From: Maridesulfovibrio salexigens DSM 2638
GTDB taxonomy: Bacteria > Desulfobacterota > Desulfovibrionia > Desulfovibrionales > Desulfovibrionaceae
DNA length: 64,000 bases
Direction of reading: 5' to 3'
Assembly: GCF_000023445.1 (NCBI RefSeq)
Contig: NC_012881.1
Location: 2,237,501 to 2,301,500, forward strand
This document shows positions 35,481 to 54,882 of the stretch, piece by piece. The notes beneath the pieces are model-generated. The model searched no databases and was not told the DNA's origin. It worked only from the letters and a program-made list of their open reading frames with translations. The stretch's first letter is position 1. Every line of letters starts with the position of its first letter. Position numbers and translations under genes: made by a program.

Positions 35481-36896
35481 CTACCGTTCCCTCAAACTTT
35501 CAGTTTTGTACTTCATAAGCGGAGAAAGAAAATAAGTGATGAGCCTGCGTTTGCGGATTGCAACTTCAGCTGTTGCACGCATACCGGGGATTAATCTTAC
35601 CTTCTGCCCATTCACAGGAATGAAATCCTGATTAAGCTTCACCCGGCACAAAAAAGTAAGATTTCCATCTTTATCTTGCACAGCGTCACTAGAAACGGAC
35701 ATGACCTCACCAGGAATAGAACCGTATTCTGTGTATGGAAAAGCCTCGAGCTTAACCTCTGCCAGCTGTCCTTCTTTCACAAAACCGATATCTCGGTTAA
35801 GTATACTGGCTTCAACCTCCAACACACTCTGTTCTGGAACGATAACCATTAACGGCTGTGCTTCCTTAACCACCCCGCCAATCGTGTGTACGGACAACTG
35901 CTGGACCTCACCATCAACGGGAGCAGTCAATTGCTGCAACCTGTTGCGCTGCTGGGCTTTAGCCAGACGCTGCTGGAGCGTTTCTATCATGTTCTCCGCA
36001 TCCGATTTTTTATGCAATGTATCGCGCCTAAATTCAGATATGACCTGCTTCTTATCACGCTCAAGCTTTTCAATGGAGGCAAGACACTCCTGCTCCTCCT
36101 GCTTTGCGGACTCATAATCCTGTTCAGCTGCAACACGCTTCTGTTCCTGAAAAAGCCAATCATGCTCAGACGCAGAATCTTGCTCATAAAGCTTACGCAT
36201 GGCCTCGGTGCGTTTGGTAATGATCTCCAAAACAGCAAATTTTTTCTTGATCTGATGCTTGAGGTTCTGCTGATGAATTTTGTCCTTTTCTATCTCACCG
36301 TTAATGCCGCTCAACTTGTCATTAATGGCCATCGCCTCATATTCAAAACGATGCTGATAAAGCAGCTTCAAGTTGGAATCTGTCCCCTCAGTAAAAACCA
36401 GTTTTTTATCGACCGAAGTACCGACTTTCCAACGACTCAATGCGCTGTAGAGAATATTGTCGCAGTATGCTCGGATAAGTTGATTTTCAAATTCCGTTAT
36501 ATCAGCTTCATTAATTGTCGGGTCCAGAGAAATAAGCAGATCGCCTTTTTTTACGCTCTGTCCTTCCTTAACCAGAATCTGCTGAACAACACCTATCTCG
36601 GCAGGCTGAATAATCTTGGCCTTGCCGCTAGGAATAATCTTGCCTGATGCAGTTGCAACTACATCAATGCGGCTGAATGTTGCCCATAGGACCGAAATCA
36701 CCACAAAAAGAATAATTGTCCTGATAATTATACGCCCAGTTGGAGATGGGGGAGTCTCCACCACCTCAAGTGCTCCGGGCATAAATTCAGTTTCCTGCTT
36801 CGGCTTTGATTCAACCATCTTTCCGGCCCAGCCTCCAAGACTGGAGTAGGCCCGCATGGGCAGATGCAGAAGTATTCCCTTACGCCGCTTCTTCAC
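35481..36896 (-). CDS. Type I secretion membrane-fusion protein (HlyD family), locus A
   Basis: The 471-residue adaptor has a cytoplasmic N-terminus, one membrane helix (about residues 57-75), a split lipoyl/barrel-sandwich domain (IVGVVQQ-type: EIGVVQQILVKEGQSVKKGDLL), a long coiled coil (about residues 150-310), and a C-terminal beta-barrel ending in SLRER. It bridges the ABC exporter and an outer-membrane channel across the periplasm. It overlaps the ABC gene by 17 bases. The TolC-type partner is not in the window. A homologue is encoded at 46446-47780. Confidence 0.92.
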   Translation of the reverse strand: MKKRRKGILLHLPMRAYSSLGGWAGKMVESKPKQETEFMPGALEVVETPPSPTGRIIIRTIILFVVISVLWATFSRIDVVATASGKIIPSGKAKIIQPAEIGVVQQILVKEGQSVKKGDLLISLDPTINEADITEFENQLIRAYCDNILYSALSRWKVGTSVDKKLVFTEGTDSNLKLLYQHRFEYEAMAINDKLSGINGEIEKDKIHQQNLKHQIKKKFAVLEIITKRTEAMRKLYEQDSASEHDWLFQEQKRVAAEQDYESAKQEEQECLASIEKLERDKKQVISEFRRDTLHKKSDAENMIETLQQRLAKAQQRNRLQQLTAPVDGEVQQLSVHTIGGVVKEAQPLMVIVPEQSVLEVEASILNRDIGFVKEGQLAEVKLEAFPYTEYGSIPGEVMSVSSDAVQDKDGNLTFLCRVKLNQDFIPVNGQKVRLIPGMRATAEVAIRKRRLITYFLSPLMKYKTESLRER

Positions 36897-39036
36897 TTCC
36901 GCCTCCCATATCCTTATTCTGATAATCCCAGAGTTTTCTATAGTATCCGTTCTGAGCGATAAGATCCGAATGTGTTCCTTGTTCTACTATCTTACCCTTA
37001 TCCATAACAATGATTCGATCACAGAGACGAATAGTGGAAAGCCGATGCGCAATAACCATTACAGTGCGATTCTGACTGATAGCACTCATATTGTTTTGGA
37101 TAATATGTTCAGATTCGTAATCAAGAGCACTAGTAGCTTCGTCCAAAATCAAGATTCTTGGGTTGGTCAGCAAGGCGCGAGCAATGGCGATTCGCTGCCG
37201 CTGACCGCCGGAAAGGGTCGATCCCTGTTCTCCGACCATGGTGGAATACCCTTCGGCCAACTCAAGGATAAAATCATGCGCCCCGGCGAGGGCTGCGGCA
37301 TGCATGACCCGGTTCATATCCACACCGGGATCGGACAGGGCAATGTTTTCCCGGACATCGCGGTTGAATAGCTTACTTTCCTGCAGGACCACCCCGATCT
37401 GCCTACGCAGCCATGAAACTTCAACCAGATTGAGATCAATACCATCCACCAGCACACGTCCATTTTCAGGTGGATAAAACCGTTGCAACAAGCTGGTCAG
37501 GGTGCTTTTTCCTGAACCGGAACGGCCTACAATACCGATGGATTCACCGGGATTAACGGTCAGGTTGATATTATCCAGAATAAATGGTCCATCCGGACGA
37601 TACCTGAAGCTGACATTCTCAAATCTGATTTGCCCCTTGATGGTTCCTGGATTTGTTGCGGCATTGTTTACCGCTTCCGTGGGGTTGTTGAGAATATCCC
37701 CAAGCCGCTCAAGGGAAACCCCGGCCTGCTGAAGATCCTGCCAGACCTTGGCAAGACGCAGGATCGGACCGCTGACCCGCTGGGCAAACATGTTGAAAGC
37801 CACAAGCTGCCCGATACTCATATCTCCGGCAATAACGGCCCGCGCACCGAACCAGATAACCAGCACGGTAGTTAATTTATTGATAAATTGTGTAGCCTGA
37901 ACAGCAAAGTTACCCAAATTGTCCGCCCGGAAAGCCGAACGCACGTAATTGGCAATGGTATCTTCCCAACGGCGCTGGAACTGAGGTTCAACAGCCATAG
38001 CCTTAACAGTATGAATGTCCGATATTGTCTCCACCAGAAAAGCCTGATTCTCAGCTCCGCGCTGGAACTTATCTTCCAGAAATTTACGCAGGATCGGGGT
38101 GATACAGAAGGAAAGGATTACATACAACGGAATGATTGCCGCCACGACTCCTGTCAGCAGCGGGGAATAGCAAAGCATGGCAACAAAAAAAACAACGGTA
38201 AAACAAAGGTCGATTATCAGGGTCAACGTTGATCCGGTCAGGAAACGACGCAGACTTTCCAGTTCCCGCACACGGGCAACAGAATCACCCACCCGCCGGG
38301 AATTGAAATAAGCGATGGGCAGCTTGACCATATGATTGAAAAGCCGCGCTCCGAGCATGACATCCACCCGGTAGGCTGTGTGCGAAAAAAGCCATGTGCG
38401 CATACCCCCAAGAACAACCTCGAAAACCGAAACAATCAGAAGCCCCACAGCAAGCACATCAAGTGTGGTCAGCCCTTTGTTAACCAACACCTTATCTACA
38501 ACCACCTGAAAAAATAACGGGGTAACCAAAGCAAAAATCTGTAGAAAAAATGAGGCCAGCAAGACTTCGCCGAACAGCTTTTTATACTTGATAATCGAAG
38601 GAATAAACCAGCTAAGATTGAACTTGCGCAATCCTTCCGGAAGGATACCCATACGGGTAAGCATGATAACCTGCCCACCCCAGTCCTTTTCAAGTTCCTC
38701 TTCCTTAACCAGTTCCGCACTGTCTTTTCTGGGATCCCTGATCAGGGCTGTACCATCACTGACCCGGCCCAGAACTTTCCAGACCCCATCATGGCCCAGA
38801 AACATTGCCGGGGTCGGTAGTATTGAAAGCTCATCAAAATCTTTGCGGGCTTCCTTGGCTTTTAATTTGATTGATTTTGCCGCCCGCAAGATTTCAATGC
38901 TGTCCATGAATTCTCCCCGGGGGGGATGTTCATGACGGACAGATTCCGTGGAAACCGGGATATTGTGAAAACGCGCAATAAAAACAAGGCACTCCAGACC
39001 TGAGTCAAGAGCCGCCGACTGGGTATCGTGCTGCAT
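36880..39036 (-). CDS. Type I secretion ABC transporter with degenerate C39 domain (HlyB type), locus A
   Basis: I start at the ATG at 39036 (MQHDTQSAALDSG). A longer frame would run into the terminator of the preceding RTX gene. The 718-residue protein matches HlyB in length: a C39-peptidase-like domain in which DCG is DSG (the nucleophilic Cys is Ser, so no cleavage), six membrane helices (about residues 140-420), and an NBD with Walker A GRSGSGKST, signature LSGGQRQR, Walker B ILILDEATSALD and switch His in VIAHRLS. It exports unprocessed RTX proteins using ATP. The likely substrate is the RTX protein encoded just upstream. Confidence 0.93.
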   Translation of the reverse strand: MQHDTQSAALDSGLECLVFIARFHNIPVSTESVRHEHPPRGEFMDSIEILRAAKSIKLKAKEARKDFDELSILPTPAMFLGHDGVWKVLGRVSDGTALIRDPRKDSAELVKEEELEKDWGGQVIMLTRMGILPEGLRKFNLSWFIPSIIKYKKLFGEVLLASFFLQIFALVTPLFFQVVVDKVLVNKGLTTLDVLAVGLLIVSVFEVVLGGMRTWLFSHTAYRVDVMLGARLFNHMVKLPIAYFNSRRVGDSVARVRELESLRRFLTGSTLTLIIDLCFTVVFFVAMLCYSPLLTGVVAAIIPLYVILSFCITPILRKFLEDKFQRGAENQAFLVETISDIHTVKAMAVEPQFQRRWEDTIANYVRSAFRADNLGNFAVQATQFINKLTTVLVIWFGARAVIAGDMSIGQLVAFNMFAQRVSGPILRLAKVWQDLQQAGVSLERLGDILNNPTEAVNNAATNPGTIKGQIRFENVSFRYRPDGPFILDNINLTVNPGESIGIVGRSGSGKSTLTSLLQRFYPPENGRVLVDGIDLNLVEVSWLRRQIGVVLQESKLFNRDVRENIALSDPGVDMNRVMHAAALAGAHDFILELAEGYSTMVGEQGSTLSGGQRQRIAIARALLTNPRILILDEATSALDYESEHIIQNNMSAISQNRTVMVIAHRLSTIRLCDRIIVMDKGKIVEQGTHSDLIAQNGYYRKLWDYQNKDMGGGSEEAA

Positions 39037-39082
39037 TGAGAATTGCCTAATGATATCGGAAAAGTTACTGCCGTATAGAACA

Positions 39083-39112
39083 AGGCCCGGAAAACAAATC
39101 TCCGGGCCTTTC
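39083..39112 (-). terminator. Hairpin terminator after the RTX gene
   Basis: AAGGCCCGGA and TCCGGGCCTT form a 10-bp stem 10 bases past the RTX stop. The T-run on the minus strand is short, so part of the transcription may continue into the ABC and HlyD genes, giving more substrate than exporter. Confidence 0.75.
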
Positions 39113-39122
39113 AATAATCAGA

Positions 39123-41333
39123 TTATGATGCAGGAGTGATATCCACAGCCATACTTGCCATCTGATCAGCTGTGTACATGCCGTTAACTGCTTCAAAGTA
39201 GAAGGATTCAACAGACTTGGAGGCATACCAGTCCTTGAACTGCATAATATCTTTATTCTCATTAGCAGCGATAAGCAGGTCATTGCCGTTCTTGTAGATA
39301 CCTACGCTAGTGAAATCCTTGATGTAGGCAGTGTCGTTGCCGCCATTAGCATCCTCATAAATAACATCGTTCTGGTTGCCTTTCTGGAAGACATAGATAT
39401 CGTCACCGGCTCCACCGAGGAGGTGGTCAGTGCCGGATCCACCGTACAAGGCATCATTGCCAGCACCGCCATTCAGGATATCATCACCGCCCAGACCGAG
39501 CAGGTTGTCATTTCCGTTACCACCGTATAAGATGTTACCGTTCGCAGCACCGGCGATGGTGTCGTTAAAAGCAGACCCTTGCACACTTTCAATTTCGCTA
39601 AGGGTATCGCCCTGGGCATCACCGCCGGTGCCTGTTCCAGCAGTAAGGTTAACAGTAACCGCAGCTGAAGATGCAGAGTAATCCGCAACGTCTACACCAG
39701 CTCCGCCTTTAAGCACGTCCGCACCGGAACCGCCGAGCAGAACATCGTTATCTGCGCCGCCATCAAGGGTATCGTCACCGCTTCCGCCAACAAGCTGATC
39801 ATTACCAGCACCACCGGAAATGGTATCGTTACCGCCATTACCCCAGATCATATTATCCTCAGCATTACCCACAACAGTATCCGCTGCTGTGCCGCCGAAA
39901 ACTTTTTCTACACTGGTAGTATTAGCCATATCGAAAGAACCGTTGACTACGAGGCTGTCCGTGCCTTCGCCACCGTCAACAAGGATATCCTCATTGTCTG
40001 CGGAGAATACATCATCGCCTGCGCCGCCCTTGAGGATGTCTGCGCCTGCACCACCAATAAGCTGGTCGTTACCTGCGCCACCTTCGAGGGTGTCGTTACC
40101 GCCGTTACCGTAGATGATATTGTTCTCGGCGTTACCGACAACAGTGTCCGCTGCGGTGCCACCCTGAACAACTTCCACGCTGGTAGTGTTGGCCATATTG
40201 AAAGAACCGTTAACTACAGCGATGTCATTTCCTTCACCGCCGTCAACGAGGGTATCGTCGTTATCTGCCGCGATAATGTCGTCGCCCTTACCGCCTTTGA
40301 TTACATCTGCGCCTGCGCCGCCGATAAGCTGGTCGTTACCGTCACCGCCTTCGAGGGTATCGTTGCCGCCGTTACCGTAAATAATATTGTTCTCGGCGTT
40401 ACCGATGATTGTGTTCGCATCATCGCTGCCGATAGCTTTTTCTACGTTAACAGTATTAACCATATTGAAGGAACCGCTGACAGACAGGCTGTCTGTGCCT
40501 TCGCCGCCGTCAACGAGGGTATCGTCGTTATCTGCCGCGATAATGTCGTCGCCCTTACCGCCTTTGATTACATCTGCGCCTGCGCCGCCGATAAGCTGGT
40601 CATTACCGTCGCCGCCGTTGATGGTGTCATTGCCTGAGCCGCCGTAAATGGTATCGTTACCGACAGTCCCGTTGATTGTGTCATTACCATCTCCGCCACG
40701 AAACTCTTCAATGCCGACGATGATAGCATCGTCAGACATCTTCCCATCTACAACAAGCACATCATGCCCGGCACCGCCATCAATCCGTTTATCCTGCGCA
40801 TCAGCAATAAGGATATCATCACCGGCACCGCCGAAAAGCCTATCTGCCCCGGCACCGCCAATAAGCACATCATTCCCGCCATCGCCGTACAACGTATCAT
40901 TTCCGGTCTTGCCGTTAATATAATCATTGCCGTCTCCGCCGTGGAGGATGTCTTTAAATGAGCGTCTAGGCCCTTTGTATGTTCCCTTCCAGGTAGGAAC
41001 AAATTCAGGCATTTCCTGAGGCTCATCTCCGGGCACGTAATCATTGCTCACAAAAGTATAACCAAGGGAATCACCTTCTATAAAGTCACCCTTGTCGGAG
41101 CCAACTACTTCATGGCTTAAGGCATTATAACCATTAGGGTTTAAATGCTCTGTGATCCTAAATGGACCAACAATAGGATACGGAAATTTCGCAGACGGGT
41201 TATTGACATCATAAATGGGCCTAGGGCTCCATCCTTTTGCCATCATTGAATGCCCTTTCAAGGTATCCGATTTCATTTCGAAACTGCAGCCATTAATAAT
41301 GGCATTAATTCTTGCAGTTAAATCTATCGCCAT
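39123..41333 (-). CDS. RTX calcium-binding repeat protein, type I secretion substrate
   Basis: The 736-residue protein starts at the ATG at 41333 (AGGAG 8 bases upstream). Residues 1-135 are non-repetitive; from there to about residue 660 there are many nonapeptides GGxGxDxLx (for example GGDGNDQLIGGAGADVIKGG), which wind into a calcium-binding beta-roll after export. A 89-residue unit is repeated three times. The C-terminal about 70 residues (QFKDWYASKSVESFYFEAV...MAVDITPAS) should hold the uncleaved secretion signal. No enzymatic domain is seen, so it is probably a surface-layer or adhesion protein. It lies directly upstream of its exporter. Confidence 0.92.
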   Translation of the reverse strand: MAIDLTARINAIINGCSFEMKSDTLKGHSMMAKGWSPRPIYDVNNPSAKFPYPIVGPFRITEHLNPNGYNALSHEVVGSDKGDFIEGDSLGYTFVSNDYVPGDEPQEMPEFVPTWKGTYKGPRRSFKDILHGGDGNDYINGKTGNDTLYGDGGNDVLIGGAGADRLFGGAGDDILIADAQDKRIDGGAGHDVLVVDGKMSDDAIIVGIEEFRGGDGNDTINGTVGNDTIYGGSGNDTINGGDGNDQLIGGAGADVIKGGKGDDIIAADNDDTLVDGGEGTDSLSVSGSFNMVNTVNVEKAIGSDDANTIIGNAENNIIYGNGGNDTLEGGDGNDQLIGGAGADVIKGGKGDDIIAADNDDTLVDGGEGNDIAVVNGSFNMANTTSVEVVQGGTAADTVVGNAENNIIYGNGGNDTLEGGAGNDQLIGGAGADILKGGAGDDVFSADNEDILVDGGEGTDSLVVNGSFDMANTTSVEKVFGGTAADTVVGNAEDNMIWGNGGNDTISGGAGNDQLVGGSGDDTLDGGADNDVLLGGSGADVLKGGAGVDVADYSASSAAVTVNLTAGTGTGGDAQGDTLSEIESVQGSAFNDTIAGAANGNILYGGNGNDNLLGLGGDDILNGGAGNDALYGGSGTDHLLGGAGDDIYVFQKGNQNDVIYEDANGGNDTAYIKDFTSVGIYKNGNDLLIAANENKDIMQFKDWYASKSVESFYFEAVNGMYTADQMASMAVDITPAS
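39830..40640. repeat. Three tandem 267-bp units inside the RTX gene
   Basis: A block that begins CCGTCAACGAGG at 40241 recurs at 40508 and, with changes, at about 39974, a period of 267 bases (89 codons). The two right-hand copies are nearly identical over more than 100 bases, which points to recent unequal crossing-over. Confidence 0.8.
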
Positions 41334-41374
41334 AGTCAATTCTCCTAATAGTTAAAGATTAATAAGAAAATTTA

Positions 41375-43299: not shown

Positions 43300-45228
43300 T
43301 TAATACCCTGCTTTATAACCTTCCATCTCCTTAATGAATTCTCCATCAATACTACTTAAAAGCACTTTCCCAATATCCAAGCTGTTATTTCCGCTTCCAG
43401 TTAAAAGGGTACTTTTTATAAATTCCCTTAAATCTATCTTGTTATTGCCATTACCAAGATTGAAGGCTGAATCTTCTGAATATAATCCACCCACACGATC
43501 ATTTCCTGATCCCATATCTACTGTGCTATAGACAAAACGGTCAGAATAAACATAATCATCGCCTTTGCCCATATGCAGGGTTGTACGGGTATCACTGGCT
43601 ATCACGGTGTCATTACCATCTCCACCATAAACTCTAACGCCCCAAAGCCAACCGGTTTTTACGCTGTCATTACCATCTCCAAGATACAGTGCTGATTTAT
43701 CAGAGTCGGAAGCAAGAATTCCAAATTTTGCATTAACTTTATCATCTCCTGCACCGGTATTAATTGAACTTCGTTCTGACATCCCTATCGTCTGCTCAGC
43801 ACTGATACTATCGTTACCAGCTCCGGTAGTTATTTTAGACTTTTGGTGTAGATGTATTGATTCACCAGACTGCACAACATCATTTCCTGCACCGGTAGAA
43901 ATACTGCCACCATAATTCACCCCCACAGAAAAACCAGACTGCACAACGTCATCACCTGCACCAGTAGAAATACGACCGCCATTATCCGCTCCAAGGCCAT
44001 GGCCAGACTTCACAACATCATCACCATCTCCAGTAGAAATTTCTCCACCTAAATTTGCGCTAATATTTTTTTCGGCATATATGGTGTCGTTTCCATCACC
44101 CGTGGAAATTGTACTGCCATAAGAGACAACACCCTTAACTTTAATCGTGTCATCACCAGCACCTGTGGAAACTGTGCTACCACCTCTGGCACCCACCCCA
44201 TTTGCAATGATCTTATCATCGCCGTACCCGGTACTTAGATTCCCTTCTCTAAGGAGGATATTCCCAGAAACGTTAAAGGAATCATTACCGCTACCAGTCT
44301 TTACAGAACTGCCGTCATAAATATTGATACTTTCAGCACTGATTGAATCGTCCCCGGAACCGGTATCAATTATGTAGGCGCCACCCTGCAAATCAATCTC
44401 TTCAGCACTTATGGAATCACTTCCGTCACCTGTACTGATATTGCCCTGAATATTCTTGGCACTGACAGTATCATCTCCGGCTCCGGTATCAATATTCCCT
44501 TTAAGAGTTCCTTCAGCCTTAACAGAGTCATTCCCGGAACCGGTCTGAACTGTTCCCTCGAAATCTTCTCCGAGCACAACGGTGTCATCTCCGGCACCTG
44601 TATCAATCACTGCATCCTTCGAGGCACTGAAAACCGTATCTTTACCGGCTCCAGTGCAGATTTCAGCACCGTCACCACCAGCAACGATGATATCGTCACC
44701 GTCAGTTTCCATTCCATTCTCGTATTGATTTACGGAAAACTTGCCCTCAGAATTTTCTGAAAAGATCATACTGCTGCTGACAAAATACTTTTGCTCATCC
44801 TCTCCTTCCAGACCTGTGACGCGGGCCATGTAACCCAACTCGCGCACTTGGGCATCGGCTCCTTCAACAGCGGGAGGAATAATCTGTGTCACCCGCTCAA
44901 AACTTACTGTCCGGCCCATCTGGGTTGTAGCTGTGCCCAAGACTTCATAGTTTGCATTCTTCGGCATGGCGATACGCACAGGTTCCACAGCAGAAACACC
45001 TTCTGTAGCTTTTGCAGCTTCACACATAGCCGACTGTTTTTTCGCCAAATTCTTAGCATCGTCTGAAAGTTCAATCTTGTCGCTCTGGGCCAGCCCCTCT
45101 TTGCCTGATTCCTGCTTAATCTTACCCACAGCATTTGCAGCCTGAGTTTCCCGATTTTTACTCAATCTATCTTCTGAGACCAACTGAGATTCAATACCAT
45201 TACCCTGACCTGAAATAGGAGAAGCCAT
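43300..45228 (-). CDS. RTX-like protein with TGxGDD repeats, paralogue 2
   Basis: The 642-residue protein shares its N-terminal plan with paralogue 1: MASPISGQ, DKIELSDDAKNLAKKQ, TQMGRTVSFERV, IFSENSEGKFSV and METDGDDIIV. About eighteen repeats of 17-26 residues follow (STGAGDDTIKVKG..., STGDGDDVVKSG...), each with a single G-x-G-(D/N)-(D/S) turn. It ends without GGxGxD nonapeptides (KEMEGYKAGY). It has no signal peptide or enzymatic domain. GGAGGATA precedes the ATG. Its duplicated leader suggests its own promoter. It is likely an exported extracellular fibre or layer protein. Confidence 0.85.
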   Translation of the reverse strand: MASPISGQGNGIESQLVSEDRLSKNRETQAANAVGKIKQESGKEGLAQSDKIELSDDAKNLAKKQSAMCEAAKATEGVSAVEPVRIAMPKNANYEVLGTATTQMGRTVSFERVTQIIPPAVEGADAQVRELGYMARVTGLEGEDEQKYFVSSSMIFSENSEGKFSVNQYENGMETDGDDIIVAGGDGAEICTGAGKDTVFSASKDAVIDTGAGDDTVVLGEDFEGTVQTGSGNDSVKAEGTLKGNIDTGAGDDTVSAKNIQGNISTGDGSDSISAEEIDLQGGAYIIDTGSGDDSISAESINIYDGSSVKTGSGNDSFNVSGNILLREGNLSTGYGDDKIIANGVGARGGSTVSTGAGDDTIKVKGVVSYGSTISTGDGNDTIYAEKNISANLGGEISTGDGDDVVKSGHGLGADNGGRISTGAGDDVVQSGFSVGVNYGGSISTGAGNDVVQSGESIHLHQKSKITTGAGNDSISAEQTIGMSERSSINTGAGDDKVNAKFGILASDSDKSALYLGDGNDSVKTGWLWGVRVYGGDGNDTVIASDTRTTLHMGKGDDYVYSDRFVYSTVDMGSGNDRVGGLYSEDSAFNLGNGNNKIDLREFIKSTLLTGSGNNSLDIGKVLLSSIDGEFIKEMEGYKAGY

Positions 45229-46445: not shown

Positions 46446-47780
46446 CTATCTCTCCCGAAAAGACTGCTGCAATGACAAATAAATTGGCTTCATAAAATAA
46501 CCTATCAAAGTTTTCTCACCAGTCCTGATATCCGCCATGACAGTCATGCCCGGCAGAACCTGGAGTTTCTGGGCTCCCTTTTTAAGATAACTCTGATCAA
46601 GGACAACCGTCCCTTCATAATAAACGCTACCCTTTTCATCCACTATGGTTGTAGGCGAGATATCGGTCAGTTTACCCTTAATTCCACCATAACGAGCGAA
46701 ATCGTAGGCCGTAAATTTTACAGTCACAGCCTGTCCTACTTTTATATGCCCCACATCACGCGACGAGATACGGACCTCGGCGATTAATTCCTTGCCGACG
46801 GGGACCAATTCCAAAACGGTTTCGCCGGGCTTGTCCACCTCACCGGGAGAATTGATCTGCAAATTGTGTACGACCCCGTCTTCGGGTGCCTTAACCGACA
46901 ACTGAAACACATCCATCTCAAATCTCTTGATAATTTCATGAATTTCTGATGCCTCCGCCTCAACTATGGCTAGTTCTGACATCCAGCTTTCAAGAGCTTC
47001 TTCCTTGAGTTTAACCAGCCTATTCTTGCTTTCAGTCAACTTTTCCCCAACCTGAATGCGGCGTACCGGAATCTGGTGAAGATTTTCCTGAACATGTAAG
47101 AACTGCCTTTTCACGCTGAAATATTCACTCTTTCCAACCAATTGTTTCTTGAAAAGATCCTCGTAGGATTCATATTCCTCTTTAAGAAGCGCATACTGTT
47201 GACGCAAATTTTCTTCACGAGTGCTGAGTTCCTTCAGCTCGGCTTCATACTGTTTGATCTGATTATTGAGAATTGCCCGCGAAGCCTTCATGGATTCAAT
47301 TTTCTGGGAATGAAGGCGGCGTTGCTGAGCCGCAAGTTCTTTATAGCGCTCATCTACTTTGGAATAATCAGGCTTTCGCCCGTCAATAAGAGCTGCCAAG
47401 CGTTCTTTACGCAGATCAAGTGATGCCTCTCTCACCAGATGCTGATCAAGATTGGAAACGGAAACTGTCGGGTCCATGGCGATGAGATCCTGTCCCTTTT
47501 TAACCGCCTGACCGTCCCTGATGAGAATATCCGAGACAATCCCGCCATCCTCACTCTGCACTCGTTTTATGTGGCCTGAAGGAATAATCTTACCGGAACA
47601 AACAGCAACTTCATCGATCCTTGTAACAGAAACCCATGCCACAAACCCGGCAATGACAAGGGTTAGGGTAATAATTACATAGCGTACAAGTTGCGGTACT
47701 CCAGTCTCTTCAAGGAGCAATGCCTGTGACAAATGCAATGAATCTTTTCTACTGTTGCGCACCTTTCTATTTTCAGAACC
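46446..47780 (-). CDS. Type I secretion membrane-fusion protein (HlyD family), locus B
   Basis: I start at the ATG at 47780 (AGGA 7 bases upstream), which overlaps the end of the ABC gene by 8 bases. The 444-residue protein has a membrane helix (about residues 29-47), a biotinyl-lipoyl-like segment (GGIVSDILIRDGQAVKKG), a long coiled coil (about residues 105-270), and a C-terminal barrel ending in SFRER. It resembles the locus A adaptor in order and ending but differs throughout. It would connect the paired ABC proteins encoded upstream to an outer-membrane channel that is not in the window. Confidence 0.9.
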   Translation of the reverse strand, partial: GSENRKVRNSRKDSLHLSQALLLEETGVPQLVRYVIITLTLVIAGFVAWVSVTRIDEVAVCSGKIIPSGHIKRVQSEDGGIVSDILIRDGQAVKKGQDLIAMDPTVSVSNLDQHLVREASLDLRKERLAALIDGRKPDYSKVDERYKELAAQQRRLHSQKIESMKASRAILNNQIKQYEAELKELSTREENLRQQYALLKEEYESYEDLFKKQLVGKSEYFSVKRQFLHVQENLHQIPVRRIQVGEKLTESKNRLVKLKEEALESWMSELAIVEAEASEIHEIIKRFEMDVFQLSVKAPEDGVVHNLQINSPGEVDKPGETVLELVPVGKELIAEVRISSRDVGHIKVGQAVTVKFTAYDFARYGGIKGKLTDISPTTIVDEKGSVYYEGTVVLDQSYLKKGAQKLQVLPGMTVMADIRTGEKTLIGYFMKPIYLSLQQSFRER

Positions 47781-49434
47781 CATAGCAGTATCCTTTGCTT
47801 GAAATTGAATCAGAAAGACAGGACTTATATTCCTCGGGAAGCCTCGAAAGAACCTGTTCAGTCGGACCGAAAAGCTTAGCTCTGCCCTTTTCCATCCACA
47901 GAATCTTGTCTGCAACTTGCAAATAATGGCACTGGTTAGTGACGATTATTATGGTACTTTTTCCCCGCTTGGAATTGATCAACTTTATAAATAAATCACT
48001 TTCAGCCAAAGAAGGACGCTCAAGAACCTCATCAAAAAGCAACAAAGGAGAACGCTTCAATAATGCACGGCTCAAATTCAGTTTTTTAAGAAATTTCTGT
48101 GACATCTGCTTCATACGATAATCACCGATTCTGGTACTAAAGCCCTCAGGTAACGCCTCAACATCCTCCAGAGCTCCGGCTTCTGAACAAGCTTTCCGCA
48201 GTTCAGCATCTGTGGCAACCGGGTTGGCGAGCCTCAGGTTCTGAGCGATGGTTCCATAAAAAAACTGAGCTTCCTGCGGAGAATACCCAATGGCACGCCT
48301 GATTTGTAAAGGATCCATCTGGCGAATACTTGTTTTACTCAAAGCAATACGACCGGCCTGAGGACGGTAAAGCCCCATGATCAATTTAAGAATTGTTGAT
48401 TTTCCAGATCCGTCATGACCTGCTATTGCCAGAACCTCCCCATGATTCACTTCAAAACTCACTCCAAGAAGCGCCGGATGGGCATCACAGGAATAACGGA
48501 TTGAAACCTGAGAAAAATCGACATCACCACGCATCTTACGATTAAGCATCAACAGCGATTCAGAATGCTGCTCAATATCCAAGTCCATAAGCCTGTCGAC
48601 CTGCTTTACACTTTTATTGATCCGCTCAACTTGAAGCATAACCACAAAAGCAGAACGCAAAGGGGCCAGAATCCGCCAGACAAGAATCATTGAAGCCACC
48701 AGCCCGCCCATGGTCATATTTCCTGCAAGAACACCGGTTACGGAAACAGCCATTGTCGCAACACCGGCAGCCATAATCAGGGTATTGGTAATAATATTAA
48801 TCTGTGAAGCAAGCTGTGAAGCCTTATAAGTTTCGGCTACACATTCAGCAGAATGCTGCCGATAGCGTTTTTCCCAAATTCCCGGTGTGCTGGTTAGCTT
48901 TATCGCCCTAATCTTAGTCAATATTTCCATGACTAATTCCTGCCGGGCAGCACCACTTTCCGCTACTGCTGCATTAGCTTTTTTAACTAGCGGCATGTAG
49001 ATTGCCGCCAAGGAAGCAAAACCCACAATCGCCGCAATAGGAACAAGAACAACCGGGCCTCCAAGAATCCACATGACCAGCAGAAGCAGCAGGATGAAAG
49101 GCCTCTCCAGCAAAGAAGTGAAGGCCTGTCCGGAGAAGAAATCCCTCACAGAATCAAAATCCTTGATCCGGGAAGCCTGTGAACCGATTGAAGCAGACTC
49201 TGTAAACGATGATGGCAGATATAGAATTCGCCTAAAAACTTCGTTGCCGACAATATTGCCTAAGCGCGCCCCGATAAAACTCATCATGCCGGAACGGATA
49301 ATCCTCAATCCGAAATCACTAAGGATGAAAACCATAACTCCGATAACAATATAAGCCAGCGTGGTGTTGTTATCGAAGAAAGGCATCTGATCATAAATAG
49401 TCATGACAAAAAGCGGCAGTATCAGGGTCAACAC
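47773..49434 (-). CDS. Type I secretion ABC half-transporter, locus B, altered signature and switch motifs
   Basis: The 553-residue protein has a type I-secretion-like membrane domain and an NBD. Walker A GHDGSGKST (about residue 343) and Walker B LLLFDE are intact. The LSGGQ signature is replaced by QMSQKFLKK, and the switch His is Asn (IIIVTNQ). The GTG start lies inside the end of the upstream ABC gene (7-base overlap). In the same frame, codons before the GTG spell HGLLISFLLSVLTLILPLF, a complete first membrane helix, down to a TGA about 35 bases upstream, so the true start may be earlier or supplied by frameshifting. It lacks any C39 domain. It likely pairs with the upstream product. Confidence 0.8.
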   Translation of the reverse strand: MLTLILPLFVMTIYDQMPFFDNNTTLAYIVIGVMVFILSDFGLRIIRSGMMSFIGARLGNIVGNEVFRRILYLPSSFTESASIGSQASRIKDFDSVRDFFSGQAFTSLLERPFILLLLLVMWILGGPVVLVPIAAIVGFASLAAIYMPLVKKANAAVAESGAARQELVMEILTKIRAIKLTSTPGIWEKRYRQHSAECVAETYKASQLASQINIITNTLIMAAGVATMAVSVTGVLAGNMTMGGLVASMILVWRILAPLRSAFVVMLQVERINKSVKQVDRLMDLDIEQHSESLLMLNRKMRGDVDFSQVSIRYSCDAHPALLGVSFEVNHGEVLAIAGHDGSGKSTILKLIMGLYRPQAGRIALSKTSIRQMDPLQIRRAIGYSPQEAQFFYGTIAQNLRLANPVATDAELRKACSEAGALEDVEALPEGFSTRIGDYRMKQMSQKFLKKLNLSRALLKRSPLLLFDEVLERPSLAESDLFIKLINSKRGKSTIIIVTNQCHYLQVADKILWMEKGRAKLFGPTEQVLSRLPEEYKSCLSDSISSKGYCYGF

Positions 49435-50990
49435 ACTGAGTAAAAAGGAAATAAGCAGACCATGGCTTCATTGACCTTATCCAATAAAAGAATACGTGGT
49501 CGAACAGTTAATGCCCGTGCAAGACATATCCGTTGAACGACACCTGTAGGAAGGAACTCATAAAGTTTGTTTCCGACTTTTGTTTCATAGCCGAGCGGTA
49601 GATCAGAAAGGACTGAATCAAGCTGCAAAAGAGAAGCTGCATCCATCGCAACCTGCCTGTTTCCCGGATTAAAAAGAGTGAGATTATCAAAAATGGTTCC
49701 ATTAAATAGGGTTCCCTGCTGCGGGAGATACTCCATACGCCCCTGAAAATCAGTGTGGCAGAACTCACTCAAATCATGGCCGTCAATAAATACCTGACCA
49801 TTATCAGGATTGATCAATCCATAGATAAGATTCAACAGAAGGGTCGACTTTCTGCCGCTGTCAGCGTTAATGCAGACCATTTCTCCATCTTGGACGAGCA
49901 TATTAAGTTCCTTGAAAACATCAGCACCGTCATTCTCAAGGGAGTAAGACACCTTGTTCAATACAATTTTACCTTTGATTTCTTCAGGCAGGCACGGTGC
50001 ATCAAGGTTAGACTCTTCACGCAGATCTACGATATTTTTAATTTGATCTTTGGCAATCTCAATATCAGCATGCCGCACCCAGAATGAAGCCAAGGCACGG
50101 AAAGGTTGAAAAAAACGCCCACTCAAAAGGGTACATCCGGCAAGACTACCAAGAGTTATATGCCCGGAAATAGCAAGAGTGCCGCCTATAAACAACACGC
50201 CGAACAAATTGATTTGGAAGAATAGATTTCCAATATTTACCGGGAGATTCCCAATGAAAATGACATCATAATCAAGCATGGCAGCATCTGCCTCAAGTCG
50301 CTCATGACGGCGAAGCATGGACTCTTCCAATGTAAGGGCCTTAACAGCATGGATTCCACTAAGGGATTCAACCAAAAAGTTGTAGCGGCGATCAGCCTGA
50401 ATCTTTTGTCTAAGCCTGCTTTTGCTGTAACTGCTGCGAATAAAAGCAATCACAAAAAGAAAGATCAAAGCAACACTGGCAAGATATGCAGCCACTTGCC
50501 AGCCTCCTATAAATCCAGCCACAGCAAGAAAGATAAACGCGAAAGGCAGATCGAGCATAAGCTGAAACGCCTGCCCTGCGTAGAATGACCTGAGAGTGTT
50601 CACTGCCCGCAAACGGTCCAGATGGACCCCGGCCCCGTCTTTTTCAAAATCATCCAGAACACAATTCATCCATCGTTCTACACAGGAAGAAGCTATACTG
50701 TGCTCGAAACGAGCAGACATCCAATTGGTGATAGTGGAACGGCTAAGTCTTAAAATTGTCTCTAAAAACAAAGCCGCCATAAATCCGGCAACCAACCAGA
50801 GCAAGGTTGATGTTGCCCTTGTAAGAACTATCCGGTCATAAACCTGCATCAAAACAATCGGCAGTGCGAGTCCAAGTATATTAATACAAATGGAGGCCAG
50901 AAACAGATCGAACGAGCTGCGCATAAATGCAGGAAGAGTTCTCAAATCACTGAAAAGCCCTCTCTGCTTTTTGAAGTATGATAAATCCAT
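49428..50990 (-). CDS. Type I secretion ABC half-transporter, locus B, degenerate and truncated NBD
   Basis: The 520-residue protein has six membrane helices (about residues 25-290; ALPIVLMQVYDRIVL near residue 42) and an NBD that cannot be fully active. Walker A is NADSGRKST (the glycine before Lys is Arg), the signature is LPTGVVQR, and Walker B LLLDK has Lys instead of the catalytic Glu. The chain stops about 12 residues after Walker B, without D-loop or switch His. The Q-loop (YLPQQGTLF) is kept. In exporters with one inactive site, such a subunit pairs with an active one. Its end is fused out of frame to the start of the next ABC gene. Confidence 0.82.
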   Translation of the reverse strand: MDLSYFKKQRGLFSDLRTLPAFMRSSFDLFLASICINILGLALPIVLMQVYDRIVLTRATSTLLWLVAGFMAALFLETILRLSRSTITNWMSARFEHSIASSCVERWMNCVLDDFEKDGAGVHLDRLRAVNTLRSFYAGQAFQLMLDLPFAFIFLAVAGFIGGWQVAAYLASVALIFLFVIAFIRSSYSKSRLRQKIQADRRYNFLVESLSGIHAVKALTLEESMLRRHERLEADAAMLDYDVIFIGNLPVNIGNLFFQINLFGVLFIGGTLAISGHITLGSLAGCTLLSGRFFQPFRALASFWVRHADIEIAKDQIKNIVDLREESNLDAPCLPEEIKGKIVLNKVSYSLENDGADVFKELNMLVQDGEMVCINADSGRKSTLLLNLIYGLINPDNGQVFIDGHDLSEFCHTDFQGRMEYLPQQGTLFNGTIFDNLTLFNPGNRQVAMDAASLLQLDSVLSDLPLGYETKVGNKLYEFLPTGVVQRICLARALTVRPRILLLDKVNEAMVCLFPFYSVC

Positions 50991-51039: not shown

Positions 51040-52623
51040 TTACCAGTCTGACTGATCAGGAAAGTCCTCCGCTTCATTTTCAAAAGCATCAAGATTATCG
51101 GAACTGTCAAAAGAGTCGTCATCGCCGCCCTTTTTACCGCGCCCTTTTCCCTTACCTCCATCTTCATCGGATTCAACTTCTTCGGTCCAACCGTTACTTA
51201 AGTCGTCCATTCCAGCTCCAGCCCCACTATCCTCTCCTTCAGTCAGCTCAGTCCAGCTAGAACCGGATTCTCCTTCATCACTCTCCATGAGAAAAAAATC
51301 GGTTTCAAGAGCATCATCTTCGCCAGCCCCAACAACCCGTTCATCGTAATGAGGCTGATCTTCTGTCACACCGGGAGGAGCTTCATCAAGACCGTTACCA
51401 AGCCCCATATTTCCCTTAGGACCTCCCTTGTCTGCACCATCAGCAGAGGAATCAGATTCGGATTCAAATTCCTGATCTCCGCCTTTACCCTGATCGGGCC
51501 CTTCTTCTACGCGGCCCCACTGGTTGCCGCGACCACCGGAAGACTTACCGGAGGAATCAGAACTACCTGTTATTGATTCTCCCAAGTCAGCCACGCCAGT
51601 TTCCGCAACAGGTTCATCCACGAATTCTTGGGGCGCTGTGTCACCACTATCATCATCCTCGCCAGCCCCAACAACCCGTTCATCATAATGAGGCTGATCT
51701 TCTGTCACACCGGGAGGAGCTTCATCAAGACCGTTACCAAGCCCCATATTTCCCTTAGGACCTCCCTTGTCTGCACCATCAGCAGAGGAATCAGATTCGG
51801 ATTCAAATTCCTGATCTCCGCCCTTACCCTGATCGGGACCTTCTTCTACGCGGCCCCACTGGTTGCCTTGACCACCGGAATCCTTACCGGAGTCGTCAGA
51901 AATATCAGCAGACTCAAAGGACTCCGTTGGAGCTTCAGAGACAGACTCTTCCACTACTTCTTCCGTAACCTCAGGCTCGACGACTTCTGCGGCAGGCTCT
52001 TCCACTACTTCTTCAGCAACCTCTGGCTCGACGACTTCTGCGGCAGGCTCTTCCACTACTTCTTCAGCAACCTCTGGCTCGACAACTTCTGCGGCAGGCT
52101 CTTCCACTGCCTCTTCAGCTACGGCAGACTCGGTAGGTCCGGCAGGAGACTCAGTTACTTTTTCCGTAACCTCTGGCTCAACTACTTCTGCGGCAGGCTC
52201 TTCCACTGCCTCTTCAGCTACGGCAGACTCGGTAGGTCCGGCAGGAGACTCTGTTACTTCTTCCGAAACCTCAGGCTCAACTACTTCTGTGGCAGGCTCT
52301 TCCACAGCCTCTTCAGCTACGGTAGACTCGGTAGGTTCAGCAGGAGACTCGGTTACTTCTTCAGCAACCTCTGGCTCAACTGATTCTACGGCAGGCTCTT
52401 CCACAACCTCTTCAGCCGCGGCAGACTCGATAGGTTCAGCAGGCGATTCTGGAGTATCTCCCCTACCGACAAAGTCTTCTGCGACTTTTTCAGCTAGTGG
52501 TGACTCAATATCAGAATCTGGTTTAATATCACCTTCGTGGATAGAACTACCGGGCAAAACTGTACCTGCAAGGCACGCAAGAATGCAATTGAAATTCACA
52601 ATCAACAACAAACAGTTCATCAT
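51040..52623 (-). CDS. Very acidic repeat protein, candidate substrate of secretion locus B
   Basis: The 527-residue protein is dominated by Glu, Asp, Ala, Val, Pro, Gly and Ser. Residues about 55-220 are tandem Glu/Val/Pro units (EEPAAEVVEPEV..., TESPAGPTESAVAEEAV). Residues about 240-430 hold two copies, 113 residues apart, of a block with GNQWGRVEEGPDQGKGG and DEAPPGVTEDQPHYDERVVG. The C-terminus is acidic with a final Asp-Trp. It appears disordered. The start is unsure: the ATG at 52623 gives a hydrophobic N-terminus without Lys/Arg and with ILAC resembling a lipobox, while a TTG at 52557 with AGGT upstream would give a soluble start (MPGSSIHEGD). It is the first gene before the two ABC genes. 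Confidence 0.75.
   Translation of the reverse strand: MMNCLLLIVNFNCILACLAGTVLPGSSIHEGDIKPDSDIESPLAEKVAEDFVGRGDTPESPAEPIESAAAEEVVEEPAVESVEPEVAEEVTESPAEPTESTVAEEAVEEPATEVVEPEVSEEVTESPAGPTESAVAEEAVEEPAAEVVEPEVTEKVTESPAGPTESAVAEEAVEEPAAEVVEPEVAEEVVEEPAAEVVEPEVAEEVVEEPAAEVVEPEVTEEVVEESVSEAPTESFESADISDDSGKDSGGQGNQWGRVEEGPDQGKGGDQEFESESDSSADGADKGGPKGNMGLGNGLDEAPPGVTEDQPHYDERVVGAGEDDDSGDTAPQEFVDEPVAETGVADLGESITGSSDSSGKSSGGRGNQWGRVEEGPDQGKGGDQEFESESDSSADGADKGGPKGNMGLGNGLDEAPPGVTEDQPHYDERVVGAGEDDALETDFFLMESDEGESGSSWTELTEGEDSGAGAGMDDLSNGWTEEVESDEDGGKGKGRGKKGGDDDSFDSSDNLDAFENEAEDFPDQSDW
51321..51889. repeat. Two-copy 339-bp-period DNA repeat in the acidic protein gene
   Basis: 51321-51550 and 51660-51889 are nearly identical at DNA level (only a few base changes in about 230 bases), with a period of 339 bases. 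The spacer between them is different. This indicates a recent internal duplication. Confidence 0.9.
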
Positions 52624-52705
52624 ATGTTAGAATCGCAGCTGAGATTTGCCTATATACGAACGCGATTTTCATTATATTAATAAGGTTCGAATATCGGGAG
52701 ATTCT
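52624..52705. promoter_or_regulatory. Short divergent promoter region between secretion locus B and the TonB operon
   Basis: Only 82 bases separate the divergent starts at 52623 and 52706. The gap is AT-rich (CATTATATTAATAAGG) and must hold both promoters, or leaders may extend further if the acidic-protein start is at 52557. No clear operator is seen. Confidence 0.5.
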
Positions 52706-53461
52706 ATGAATAGAATTATGCTAATTTCTCTAATTGCTCAGCTAGTTGTGGCAGTCCCTGCTATGAGCAATATGCAGGTCAAAGATGTGCATGAACAAGC
52801 GGCCAACGCTGTGGCAATAGAGGCAAAGGCACAAAAACAATATCAAAACTGGGCAGATCTGAAAGACCAGGAATCTGATGCCATTCGCGAAATGAAAGCC
52901 ACAGAAGCATGGCTCGAATTTCAAAACAGAAAATACGATAGGTACCTCAAAAAGCAGGAAAAAGTAATAGCAGAGCTAAAGAGACGCAAAGAAGAAGCCA
53001 AAAGAATCAAAATGGAGCTGGAACCGTTTTTGGAAACAGTTGTTGATCAGTTGGAACTCTTTGTAAAATCCGACCTGCCTTTTCTGAATGATGAAAGAAC
53101 CCGCCGGATTCAATTCCTGCGCGATTCTCTGGATGACTATCATTTGCAGCTCAGCGAAAAACTGCGCCGGGTATTTGAGGCATTACTTGTCGAAACTGAA
53201 TATGGCCAAAACGTATCCACTTCCACGCAGGAATTAATGATCAACGGGACACCTACTCAGGTTACCATCTTCCGCCTTGGACGCGCCGCCCTTTACTACC
53301 AGACAACAGACGGCTCTGAAGTCGGGATATGGGATAAAGACTCGCACAGCTGGAAAACTCTGGCCCCCACATATGCTTTGACCCTGCGCCGCGCCAAAGA
53401 CATGGCGGAACGTAAGCGCGCTGTTGAATTACTAGAACTTCCGCTGGGAGTGGCAAAATGA
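52706..53461 (+). CDS. DUF3450 periplasmic coiled-coil protein of the TonB operon
   Basis: The start at 52706 (MNRIMLIS) has GGGAG 6 bases upstream. The 251-residue protein has a signal peptide and a long coiled coil (about residues 25-115; KKQEKVIAELKRRKEEAKRIKMELEP) followed by a conserved C-terminal domain (GRAALYYQTTDGSEVGIWD). This is the DUF3450 family, which is regularly encoded with TtpC-type TonB systems. It probably works in the periplasm with the TtpC coiled-coil domain. Its stop overlaps the next start by ATGA. Confidence 0.88.
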   Translation: MNRIMLISLIAQLVVAVPAMSNMQVKDVHEQAANAVAIEAKAQKQYQNWADLKDQESDAIREMKATEAWLEFQNRKYDRYLKKQEKVIAELKRRKEEAKRIKMELEPFLETVVDQLELFVKSDLPFLNDERTRRIQFLRDSLDDYHLQLSEKLRRVFEALLVETEYGQNVSTSTQELMINGTPTQVTIFRLGRAALYYQTTDGSEVGIWDKDSHSWKTLAPTYALTLRRAKDMAERKRAVELLELPLGVAK

Positions 53462-54882
53462 AAATAGTCGTATATTGCCTTTTACTTTGCTTATCTTTTC
53501 CTTTCTGTGCAGTCGCACAGAGCTGGACTGACACCGCCAAAGCCGTTGGAAGCGTGGTGACTGAAGCCAAACAAAACGCACAAACAACCAAGAACCTCAT
53601 TGCAAAAGAACGAAGTGAGCTTAAAGCTGAAAAACAGCAACTCGACAAAAGCATTAACTCTAAACAAAATAAATTTGATTCCCTCAAAGCCAGATATGAA
53701 GAATTGCTTAAGGAAGAGGAAAAGCTCAACAAGGAATTAGCAGAGCAGGCACAGGAAATCCAAACCATCGATGGAACGATACGGACCTCAGCCAAGCAGG
53801 CCCGGGATTATTTCCATGAAAGCCTGACCACTCCCGAACACCCGGAAAGAGCTGTCGTTCTGAAAGAAGTCCTGAAAGCAAACACCTTTGCCGGATTAAA
53901 CGGTATCCAAAATCTGTTGGGCCTTTTTATGGATGAAATGGTTGCATCCGGCGAGATAGACCGCCGTAATGGTCAATTCACCGGAGCAGACGGTACTGAG
54001 AAATCCGGCGAAGTACTCCGCATCGGCTCATTTACCTCTGCTTACCGTCAGCCCGATGGGACATTAGGTTTTCTGCGCCCTTCCCCCGGCGGCGACAAAC
54101 TCATAGCGGTAAAAGGTGAACCGGGTTGGGCTATCTCAAAAACCATGAACAGTTTTCTCGATGACAACGGCGTTGCTTTTCCTGTGGATATCTCCAACGG
54201 AGCCTCTTTTGCCCGACTTGCACAACAGCAGAAAAGTATACAGGAATGGCTAAGTGCCGGAGGACTGCTGGTCTGGCCTATAATCATTGTCGGGATTGCA
54301 GCTTTTATTCTGGTTATCGAAAGATTCTATACCCTTAGCAGAATCCGCAGCAACTCGGACCGCAACATGGCAAAGATTCTTAAAATGATTGCCAATGATG
54401 AATGGGATAAATGCCGATCTTTCTGCAATGAACAATCTCATTACCCCACCTGCCGGATCATCGGACACACCCTTAATTATATGGGGCAGGCACGGGAAAT
54501 TATCGAAAATGCGTTTCAGGAAGGCCTGCTCAAGGAACTCCCGATTCTGGAACGTTCCCTGCCTACGCTGAATGTACTGGCTGCAGTTGCTCCGTTGCTG
54601 GGTCTTTTAGGTACAGTTACCGGCATGATCAGCACTTTCCAAATCATAACCCTCTACGGTACCGGAGACCCCAGAATGATGTCCGGCGGGATATCGGAAG
54701 CACTGGTCACCACTCAGTTAGGGCTGGCTGTGGCTGTTCCGATCATGATTCTGCATCATATTCTGGACCGCCGCGTGGATAAGATCATCAGTGACATGGA
54801 AGAAAAAGGGTCAGGATTCGCTGTTGCCCTGATGAAGAAAGGCAAACTCAAAAGCAAGGACGAACAACATGCAGCAGTATAA
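53458..54882 (+). CDS. TtpC-like ExbB/TolQ-family protein with N-terminal periplasmic coiled coil
   Basis: The 474-residue protein has a signal peptide, a coiled-coil region (about residues 20-105), a periplasmic domain, then three membrane helices of the MotA/TolQ/ExbB family (about residues 262-285, 365-390, 415-435). The hallmark VAAVAPLLGLLGTVTGMISTF is in the second. The length and layout match TtpC of Vibrio TonB2 systems rather than standard ExbB (about 240 residues). It helps couple the proton gradient to TonB. It overlaps the upstream gene by 4 bases and the next by 14. Confidence 0.9.
   Translation: MKIVVYCLLLCLSFPFCAVAQSWTDTAKAVGSVVTEAKQNAQTTKNLIAKERSELKAEKQQLDKSINSKQNKFDSLKARYEELLKEEEKLNKELAEQAQEIQTIDGTIRTSAKQARDYFHESLTTPEHPERAVVLKEVLKANTFAGLNGIQNLLGLFMDEMVASGEIDRRNGQFTGADGTEKSGEVLRIGSFTSAYRQPDGTLGFLRPSPGGDKLIAVKGEPGWAISKTMNSFLDDNGVAFPVDISNGASFARLAQQQKSIQEWLSAGGLLVWPIIIVGIAAFILVIERFYTLSRIRSNSDRNMAKILKMIANDEWDKCRSFCNEQSHYPTCRIIGHTLNYMGQAREIIENAFQEGLLKELPILERSLPTLNVLAAVAPLLGLLGTVTGMISTFQIITLYGTGDPRMMSGGISEALVTTQLGLAVAVPIMILHHILDRRVDKIISDMEEKGSGFAVALMKKGKLKSKDEQHAAV

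Follow-up and report, generated by a model that had tools for sequence, protein, structure and literature searches.

An out-of-frame joint between two type I secretion ABC genes of Maridesulfovibrio salexigens points to the deletion of a hemerythrin gene kept in related operons

What has happened where two ATP-binding cassette (ABC) genes run into each other out of frame? A type I secretion operon of Maridesulfovibrio salexigens DSM 2638 raises this question. It lies on the reverse strand of the 64,000-nucleotide stretch analysed here, referred to as the window. In it, a permease/ATPase gene cut short at its end (ABC1) overlaps a second one that lacks its beginning (ABC2), and a gene for a HlyD-type periplasmic adaptor follows. 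Both ABC proteins scored above the Pfam cut-offs for ABC_membrane and ABC_tran, each with the two domains in one chain, and the adaptor reached 349.5 bits against TIGR01843 (cut-off 208.65), which gives the operon the HlyD protein of type I secretion. An earlier note on this DNA had left two explanations standing: either a deletion fused two genes, or -1 frameshifting makes one large exporter from both. Our comparison with related loci speaks for the first. The odd joint is very probably the result of a deletion of about 1.13 kb, which left a pair that is probably no longer a working exporter. The joint itself would then be ordinary, but it brings to light a conserved operon in which a diiron oxygen-binding protein is linked to an exporter that keeps only one intact ATP site.

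The evidence for the deletion came from the same genus. Among 17 of its genomes that were searched, including that of the window, two others (G013 and G005) hold orthologues with 79% identity. Their gene order is ABC1 (561 aa), a hemerythrin-like gene (170 and 172 aa), ABC2 (705 and 710 aa) and HlyD, and the first three of these genes overlap end to start. The window DNA follows both loci at 71-73% identity up to Met510 of ABC1 and resumes at His155 of ABC2. Arithmetic on the alignment positions puts the extra DNA of the relatives at about 1,129 bp (G005) and about 1,127 bp (G013). Because these two same-genus loci keep the missing 1.13 kb, we read the joint as a deletion. Lost from the window are the last 51 residues of ABC1 (511-561), the whole hemerythrin and ABC2 residues 1-154; neither the hemerythrin gene nor the N-terminal region of ABC2 had figured in the earlier note. 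The window genome holds no second copy of ABC2 residues 1-153, for which the best match begins at residue 154, and no close hemerythrin (best 29% identity).

The remnants fit this history. The ABC1 product consists of 510 residues that align with the orthologues and an out-of-frame tail of 10, and it ends 15 residues beyond the Lys of LLLDK. The ABC2 frame is open from position 49467, the ABC1 stop codon occupies 49430-49428, and the GTG start of ABC2 aligns with residue 165 of the G013 protein. As had been described before, the missing first part of the first transmembrane helix (TM1) of ABC2 (HGLLISFLL) is encoded in the -1 frame over the end of ABC1, beside a run of five T. A single deletion, probably between short matches (CATGG), would account for this overlap of two remnants in different frames. 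The right-hand ancestral CATGG is presumed, since both G013 and G005 read CACGG there. Could the joint be a fault of sequencing or assembly instead? Only one genome of the species was examined, which counts against the deletion in that no second strain excludes such a fault, and the event is a single clean gap. Nevertheless, the genome is a single contig of 4,289,847 bases, and no direct repeat of at least 12 bases flanks the break in either sister locus, so the collapse of a repeat is unlikely. Overall, we consider an error at the joint very improbable.

The second explanation, programmed -1 frameshifting into a two-in-one exporter of about 1,080 residues, is suggested by the overlap of the two frames at the T run. 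A weak hairpin also begins just behind this run (base 9 of the folded stretch), and related loci carry true in-frame ABC1-ABC2 fusions of 1,315-1,329 aa. However, the 40-base overlap holds no slippery heptamer of the form X XXY YYZ in the ABC1 frame. The T run consists of codons for TM1, where G013 reads TCTTTTTTGCTC and G005 reads TCTTTTCTACTC in complete single-frame genes, and the sisters show third-position variation there. The RNA from the T run onward (118 bases) folds just slightly better than shuffled sequences (z of -1.94, 8 of 200 shuffles being as good), and its most stable hairpin starts only at base 64. The predicted product is a further obstacle. In the relative G245, hemerythrin is fused to ABC1 (762 aa), and in a model of this fusion (mean pLDDT 80, pTM 0.53) the window's break falls near residue 535. 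The residues past it form three of the nine strands of the nucleotide-binding domain (NBD), together with the accompanying helices. In a frameshifted chain, TM1 would thus follow the D-loop directly and the elements that complete the NBD of ABC1 (NBD1) would be missing, whereas the natural fusions, which occur in other families, keep the whole of NBD1 and the N-terminal region of ABC2. Lacking a heptamer, with the T run accounted for by TM1 and part of the NBD1 core dropped at the join, programmed frameshifting was rejected as extremely improbable.

How widespread is the arrangement that the deletion removed? A class-wide ABC1 search placed 20 of 348 genomes above 440 bits, which we took as the top group, the next genome reaching 363 bits. 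The loci of all 20 were read for gene content, and G291 (363 bits) and G116 (362 bits), just below the cut, fell outside them. A hemerythrin gene lies between the two halves in 14 loci (G013, G005, G310, G307, G289, G306, G311, G294, G298, G097, G245, G119, G304 and G299). The window makes the 15th locus of this hemerythrin group and is the sole one without the gene; the exporter pair of the group is thus present in 15 of 288 family genomes. A family search with the hemerythrin profile (E 1e-25) returned exactly the 14 hemerythrin-bearing loci, leaving the window genome as the family's only carrier of this ABC1 without hemerythrin. Five top-group loci have none between the halves (G046, G076, G075, G083 and G054). 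Three of these are the single open reading frames (ORFs) holding both halves, and G083 has an incomplete ORF of this kind (1,056 aa); the halves of G054 fall on separate contigs, which leaves the presence of hemerythrin between them undecided. Across 395 phylum-wide genomes, the ABC1 model (E 1e-115) found only the window's own genome and G433, a member of another family with a split pair and no hemerythrin between the halves. The hemerythrin model (E 1e-20) found nothing in the same set, a weak negative since none of these genomes is known to hold the gene, and an ABC1 scan of genome contigs turned up only distant ABC proteins, at four loci.

The assignment of the gene between the halves was based on several features. 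The G013 protein reached 65 bits for TIGR02481 (cut-off 51.75), but it stays below the Pfam gathering threshold for Hemerythrin (21.8 versus 25.3). The seven iron ligands, HHEHHHD (five His, one Glu and one Asp), are all present in 11 of the 14 rows; G119 lacks the Asp, and the aligned domain of G304 and of G299 is one His short. The AlphaFold2 model (mean pLDDT 84) is a helical bundle of the four-helix type. Its eight best matches in the PDB were DcrH-Hr and bacteriohemerythrin structures (TM-score to target 0.71-0.81, Foldseek E 0.014-0.05, no match reaching E 0.001), among which DcrH-Hr is the nearest solved relative and the best fold match. In G304 and G299, the proteins between ABC1 and ABC2 (478 and 438 aa) contain three hemerythrin domains each.

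The two halves of the exporter differ in their ATPase motifs. Throughout the hemerythrin group, ABC1 has no GxxGxGK[ST] (15/15) and carries K, R or Q in place of the catalytic Glu (15/15); the aligned switch His is absent from all 14 proteins that extend so far, the window's having been deleted. The Gly at the fourth position of the signature is retained in all 15. ABC2 has a Walker A of the form GHDG[AS]GKS and the DE of Walker B in every locus. Its aligned switch His is missing from all 15, with a His one place later in nine, and its signature lacks the fourth Gly in every locus except G013 (MHTGF). Each of the 15, the window included, thus pairs two different half-transporters of which one has lost its Walker motifs. 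A recent decay of the motifs in the window was rejected, the same motifs being missing in all 14 hemerythrin-bearing relatives. The degeneracy is old, and NADSGRKST in the window only resembles a Walker A. The motifs also indicate that one composite ATP site, made of the ABC2 Walker motifs and the ABC1 signature, is kept in all 15 loci.

Most of what the earlier note had said about these motifs held up. NADSGRKST, LPTGV and LLLDK, with a stop just past Walker B, were found in ABC1 as stated, and ABC2 does combine good Walker motifs (GHDGSGKS, LLLFDE) with MSQKF at the signature position and VTNQ at the expected switch-His motif, hence with neither LSGGQ nor the switch His. Its reading of a single usable ATP site fits the motif pattern of all 15 loci, although the aligned switch His of ABC2 is absent from each. 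LPTGV is present but not peculiar to the window: in this subfamily the ABC1 signature usually reads LPxGV, also in relatives with otherwise canonical ABC1 motifs. The note had named complete, separate NBDs with canonical motifs in the orthologues as the outcome that would speak against it; the NBDs there are indeed whole and on separate proteins, yet they depart from the canonical motifs.

The six loci lacking hemerythrin, namely G433 and five of the top group, all carry a canonical ABC1 Walker A. The ABC1 of the five top-group loci also has its Glu and His, and the ABC2 switch His is present in only two of the five. Dead NBD1 motifs and hemerythrin therefore co-occur within the top group of 20, and motif loss is also seen outside it. 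Two side observations concern paired exporters more broadly. G001 and G010, of the same genus, hold another paired type I secretion system (T1SS) with an ABC1 devoid of Walker A; the ABC2 has no recognisable signature, but its switch motif, read in G001, does contain the His (SHN). One-site pairs could thus have evolved repeatedly. In G289, ABC2 is split between its transmembrane domain and its NBD into two ORFs of 505 and 234 aa, which makes it either a second damaged family member or a sequencing fault.

Trees of ABC1 and of ABC2 placed the window beside G013 and G005 (100/100 and 100/99, respectively), among hemerythrin-bearing rows. Since it is nested there, the missing hemerythrin is a derived loss. 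In the ABC2 tree, from which G289 was left out for its split gene, one branch (86/89) unites the window with the 13 hemerythrin rows that were used. In the ABC1 tree G304 and G299 stand apart, so that hemerythrin need not have been gained only once; several long branches drew a warning from the tree program.

Does the pair in the window still function? Because NBD1 has lost strands and helices and ABC2 its N-terminal region and part of TM1, loss of function is probable: going by the G245 model, NBD1 would be without three of its nine predicted strands. We compared rates of change in 10 of the 15 hemerythrin-group loci, using protein branch lengths and the numbers of unique changes, and left out G289 for its split ABC2 and the more distant G245, G119, G304 and G299. 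Compared with the sister stem plus mean tip, the branch of the window was 0.180 versus 0.111 for ABC1, 0.179 versus 0.148 for ABC2 and 0.069 versus 0.119 for HlyD. Relative to HlyD, the unique changes gave p = 0.026 for ABC1 and p = 0.14 for ABC2. ABC1 evolves somewhat faster, and this mild acceleration suggests a loss of function. The counts themselves do not show a long-term decay. With G310 as the outgroup, the window and the sister stem had 43 and 23 unique amino-acid changes in ABC1 (p = 0.019), 32 and 22 in ABC2 (p = 0.22), and 16 and 22 in HlyD (p = 0.42), and when measured against the synonymous changes of the same gene, the excess in ABC1 was not significant (p = 0.39). Both frames are otherwise open and mostly constrained, so either the deletion is young or something is retained.

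What might be retained is a simplified exporter without hemerythrin, in which the truncated ABC1 supplies a signature, ABC2 is the only ATPase and its translation restarts at a GTG or TTG overlapping the ABC1 stop. The open frames, the retained motifs of the single composite site, the nonsignificant excess in ABC2 and the lack of any excess in HlyD would all be expected of such an exporter. On the other hand, ABC1 lacks residues 511-561 and collects more changes than its sisters, ABC2 begins inside TM1, and the 25 bases before the GTG show no Shine-Dalgarno-like sequence. In addition, the His next to the switch position is gone from the window ABC2, whose signature residues are unlike those of all relatives read. 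We regard a working simplified exporter as unlikely; the simplest reading is that the deletion is recent and the pair dead or dying.

What would the intact operon do? The ancestral operon presumably comprised the acidic repeat protein, ABC1, hemerythrin, ABC2 and HlyD, in this order. Relatives of the acidic repeat protein occupy the same place in 10 of the 14 hemerythrin-bearing loci, as in the window, some loci being cut by a contig end. In the intact relatives, ABC1 and ABC2 would most likely form a heterodimer, to judge from the fused relatives and the motifs, with one hydrolysing site (Walker A and B of ABC2 facing the ABC1 signature) and one dead site. We place hemerythrin next to the C-terminus of NBD1 because of the overlapping genes and the one ABC1 fusion. 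There it would most likely sit by the dead NBD and sense oxygen or the redox state. It may in this way gate the exporter and make the export of the acidic repeat protein depend on oxygen. Our tentative proposal, which is possible but has the odds against it, is that in Desulfovibrio-type anaerobes the dead NBD1 serves as a docking platform for a diiron oxygen sensor that gates the secretion of a surface protein by oxygen or redox state, a kind of ABC exporter control for which we found no report among open-licence papers, and that the window species would be a natural mutant minus the sensor. Alternatively, hemerythrin could be an iron or oxygen scavenger that is translated with the exporter for other reasons.

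The gating proposal is weakened because damaged ABC1 motifs occur with no hemerythrin between the halves: the ABC1 of G433 lacks the Glu and the His, and the more distant pairs of G001 and G010 have lost the ABC1 Walker A. If the link is regulatory, anaerobes would have a way of controlling protein secretion that is new.

The coordinates of the features are collected in the table below. Other genes of the window also concern secretion. A second, ordinary type I secretion set contains a canonical C39-ABC protein with LSGGQ and AHR, and its RTX protein has nine HemolysinCabind stretches. Between the two sets lies a TGAGDD-type repeat protein, a possible cargo, which matches a calcium-binding repeat family only weakly (47 bits, cut-off 625). 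Divergent from the secretion operon are genes for a DUF3450 protein and then an ExbB-like protein with a DUF3450-like N-terminus of its own.

Table. Positions of the operon, its joint and other features; a locus label (L) marks features outside the window
Feature	Position	Strand	Remark
HlyD-type periplasmic adaptor, same operon	46446..47783	-	full-length open frame; TIGR01843 above cut-off
ABC2, type I secretion permease/ATPase	47773..49434	-	553 aa from GTG; without N-terminal region and first part of TM1
ABC2 Walker B, LLLFDE	48028..48045	-	intact
ABC2 Walker A, GHDGSGKS	48397..48420	-	intact
ABC1, type I secretion permease/ATPase	49428..50990	-	520 aa; truncated at D-loop
Overlap open in ABC1 frame and -1 ABC2 frame	49428..49467	-	40 bases; holds CCTTTTTAC
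Deletion junction, CATGG	49460..49464	-	aligns on both flanks, ABC1 to the left and ABC2 to the right; about 1.13 kb absent compared with two same-genus loci
ABC1 Walker B, LLLDK	49476..49490	-	Lys in place of catalytic Glu
ABC1 signature, LPTGV	49539..49553	-	family form LxxGx
ABC1 Walker A, NADSGRKST	49842..49868	-	degenerate
Acidic repeat protein	51040..52623	-	directly upstream of ABC1; putative cargo
Second type I secretion set (HlyD, C39-ABC protein, RTX protein)	35481-41339	-	
TGAGDD-type repeat protein	43300-45228	-	642 aa
DUF3450 protein and ExbB-like protein	52646-54882	+	
Triple-hemerythrin protein, G304	L082 6337-7773	-	
Triple-hemerythrin protein, G299	L083 6837-8153	+	
Other paired T1SS, G001	L039 6768-10558		
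Other paired T1SS, G010	L040 10013-13797		
Split ABC2, G289	L073 5657-7845	-	two ORFs

How does this operon compare with known systems? The T1SS of MARTX toxins (RtxB/RtxE/RtxD/TolC) likewise has two different ABC proteins and one adaptor, and both ABC proteins are reported to be needed for secretion (PMC3034196); its cargo differs, and the portion of that paper available to us mentions no hemerythrin. As for LssB-type systems, ABC1, ABC2 and the fused relative G046 all match TIGR03375 best among the NCBIfam models. The window proteins, both truncated, reached 307.2 (ABC1) and 387.2 bits (ABC2) and those of G013 335.2 and 436.9 bits, that is, 307-437 bits against a cut-off of 693.1, and unlike the LssB type these pairs consist of unlike halves with unequal motifs. 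The fused G046 exceeds the cut-off with its two stretches taken together (771 versus 693.1).

The hemerythrin side also has counterparts. Bacterial hemerythrin domains act as oxygen or redox sensors on a methyl-accepting chemoreceptor, on c-di-GMP enzymes and on a P-type ATPase, according to the part of a 2022 review available to us (PMC9388753). The operon described here resembles DcrH, Bhr-DGC, Bhr-HD-GYP and the P1B-5 ATPase in that a diiron hemerythrin adjoins an effector. That review gives no case of an ABC exporter, the words 'ABC', 'transporter' and 'secretion' having no occurrence in its text. We found no published report of a hemerythrin gene in a T1SS exporter operon among open-licence papers; a paper on Desulfovibrio secretion, as far as its accessible part goes, lists a hemerythrin family protein in a proteomics table.

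A parallel in ATPase design is found in heterodimeric exporters with one dead and one active composite site, such as TM287/288, TmrAB and TAP. These one-site exporters are well studied, and the accessible part of a review calls the purpose of the degenerate site unclear (PMC7756269). The pairs with hemerythrin have lost the NBD1 Walker motifs, which are retained in the in-frame fusions that have no hemerythrin, so that the present family offers a way to ask what this purpose is, although the correspondence is imperfect in view of the damaged hemerythrin-free pairs outside the group. Unlike TM287/288, TmrAB and TAP, the dead half here has lost its Walker A outright, the signature and switch His of ABC2 are altered too, and the operon, like those for protein secretion, includes a HlyD adaptor.

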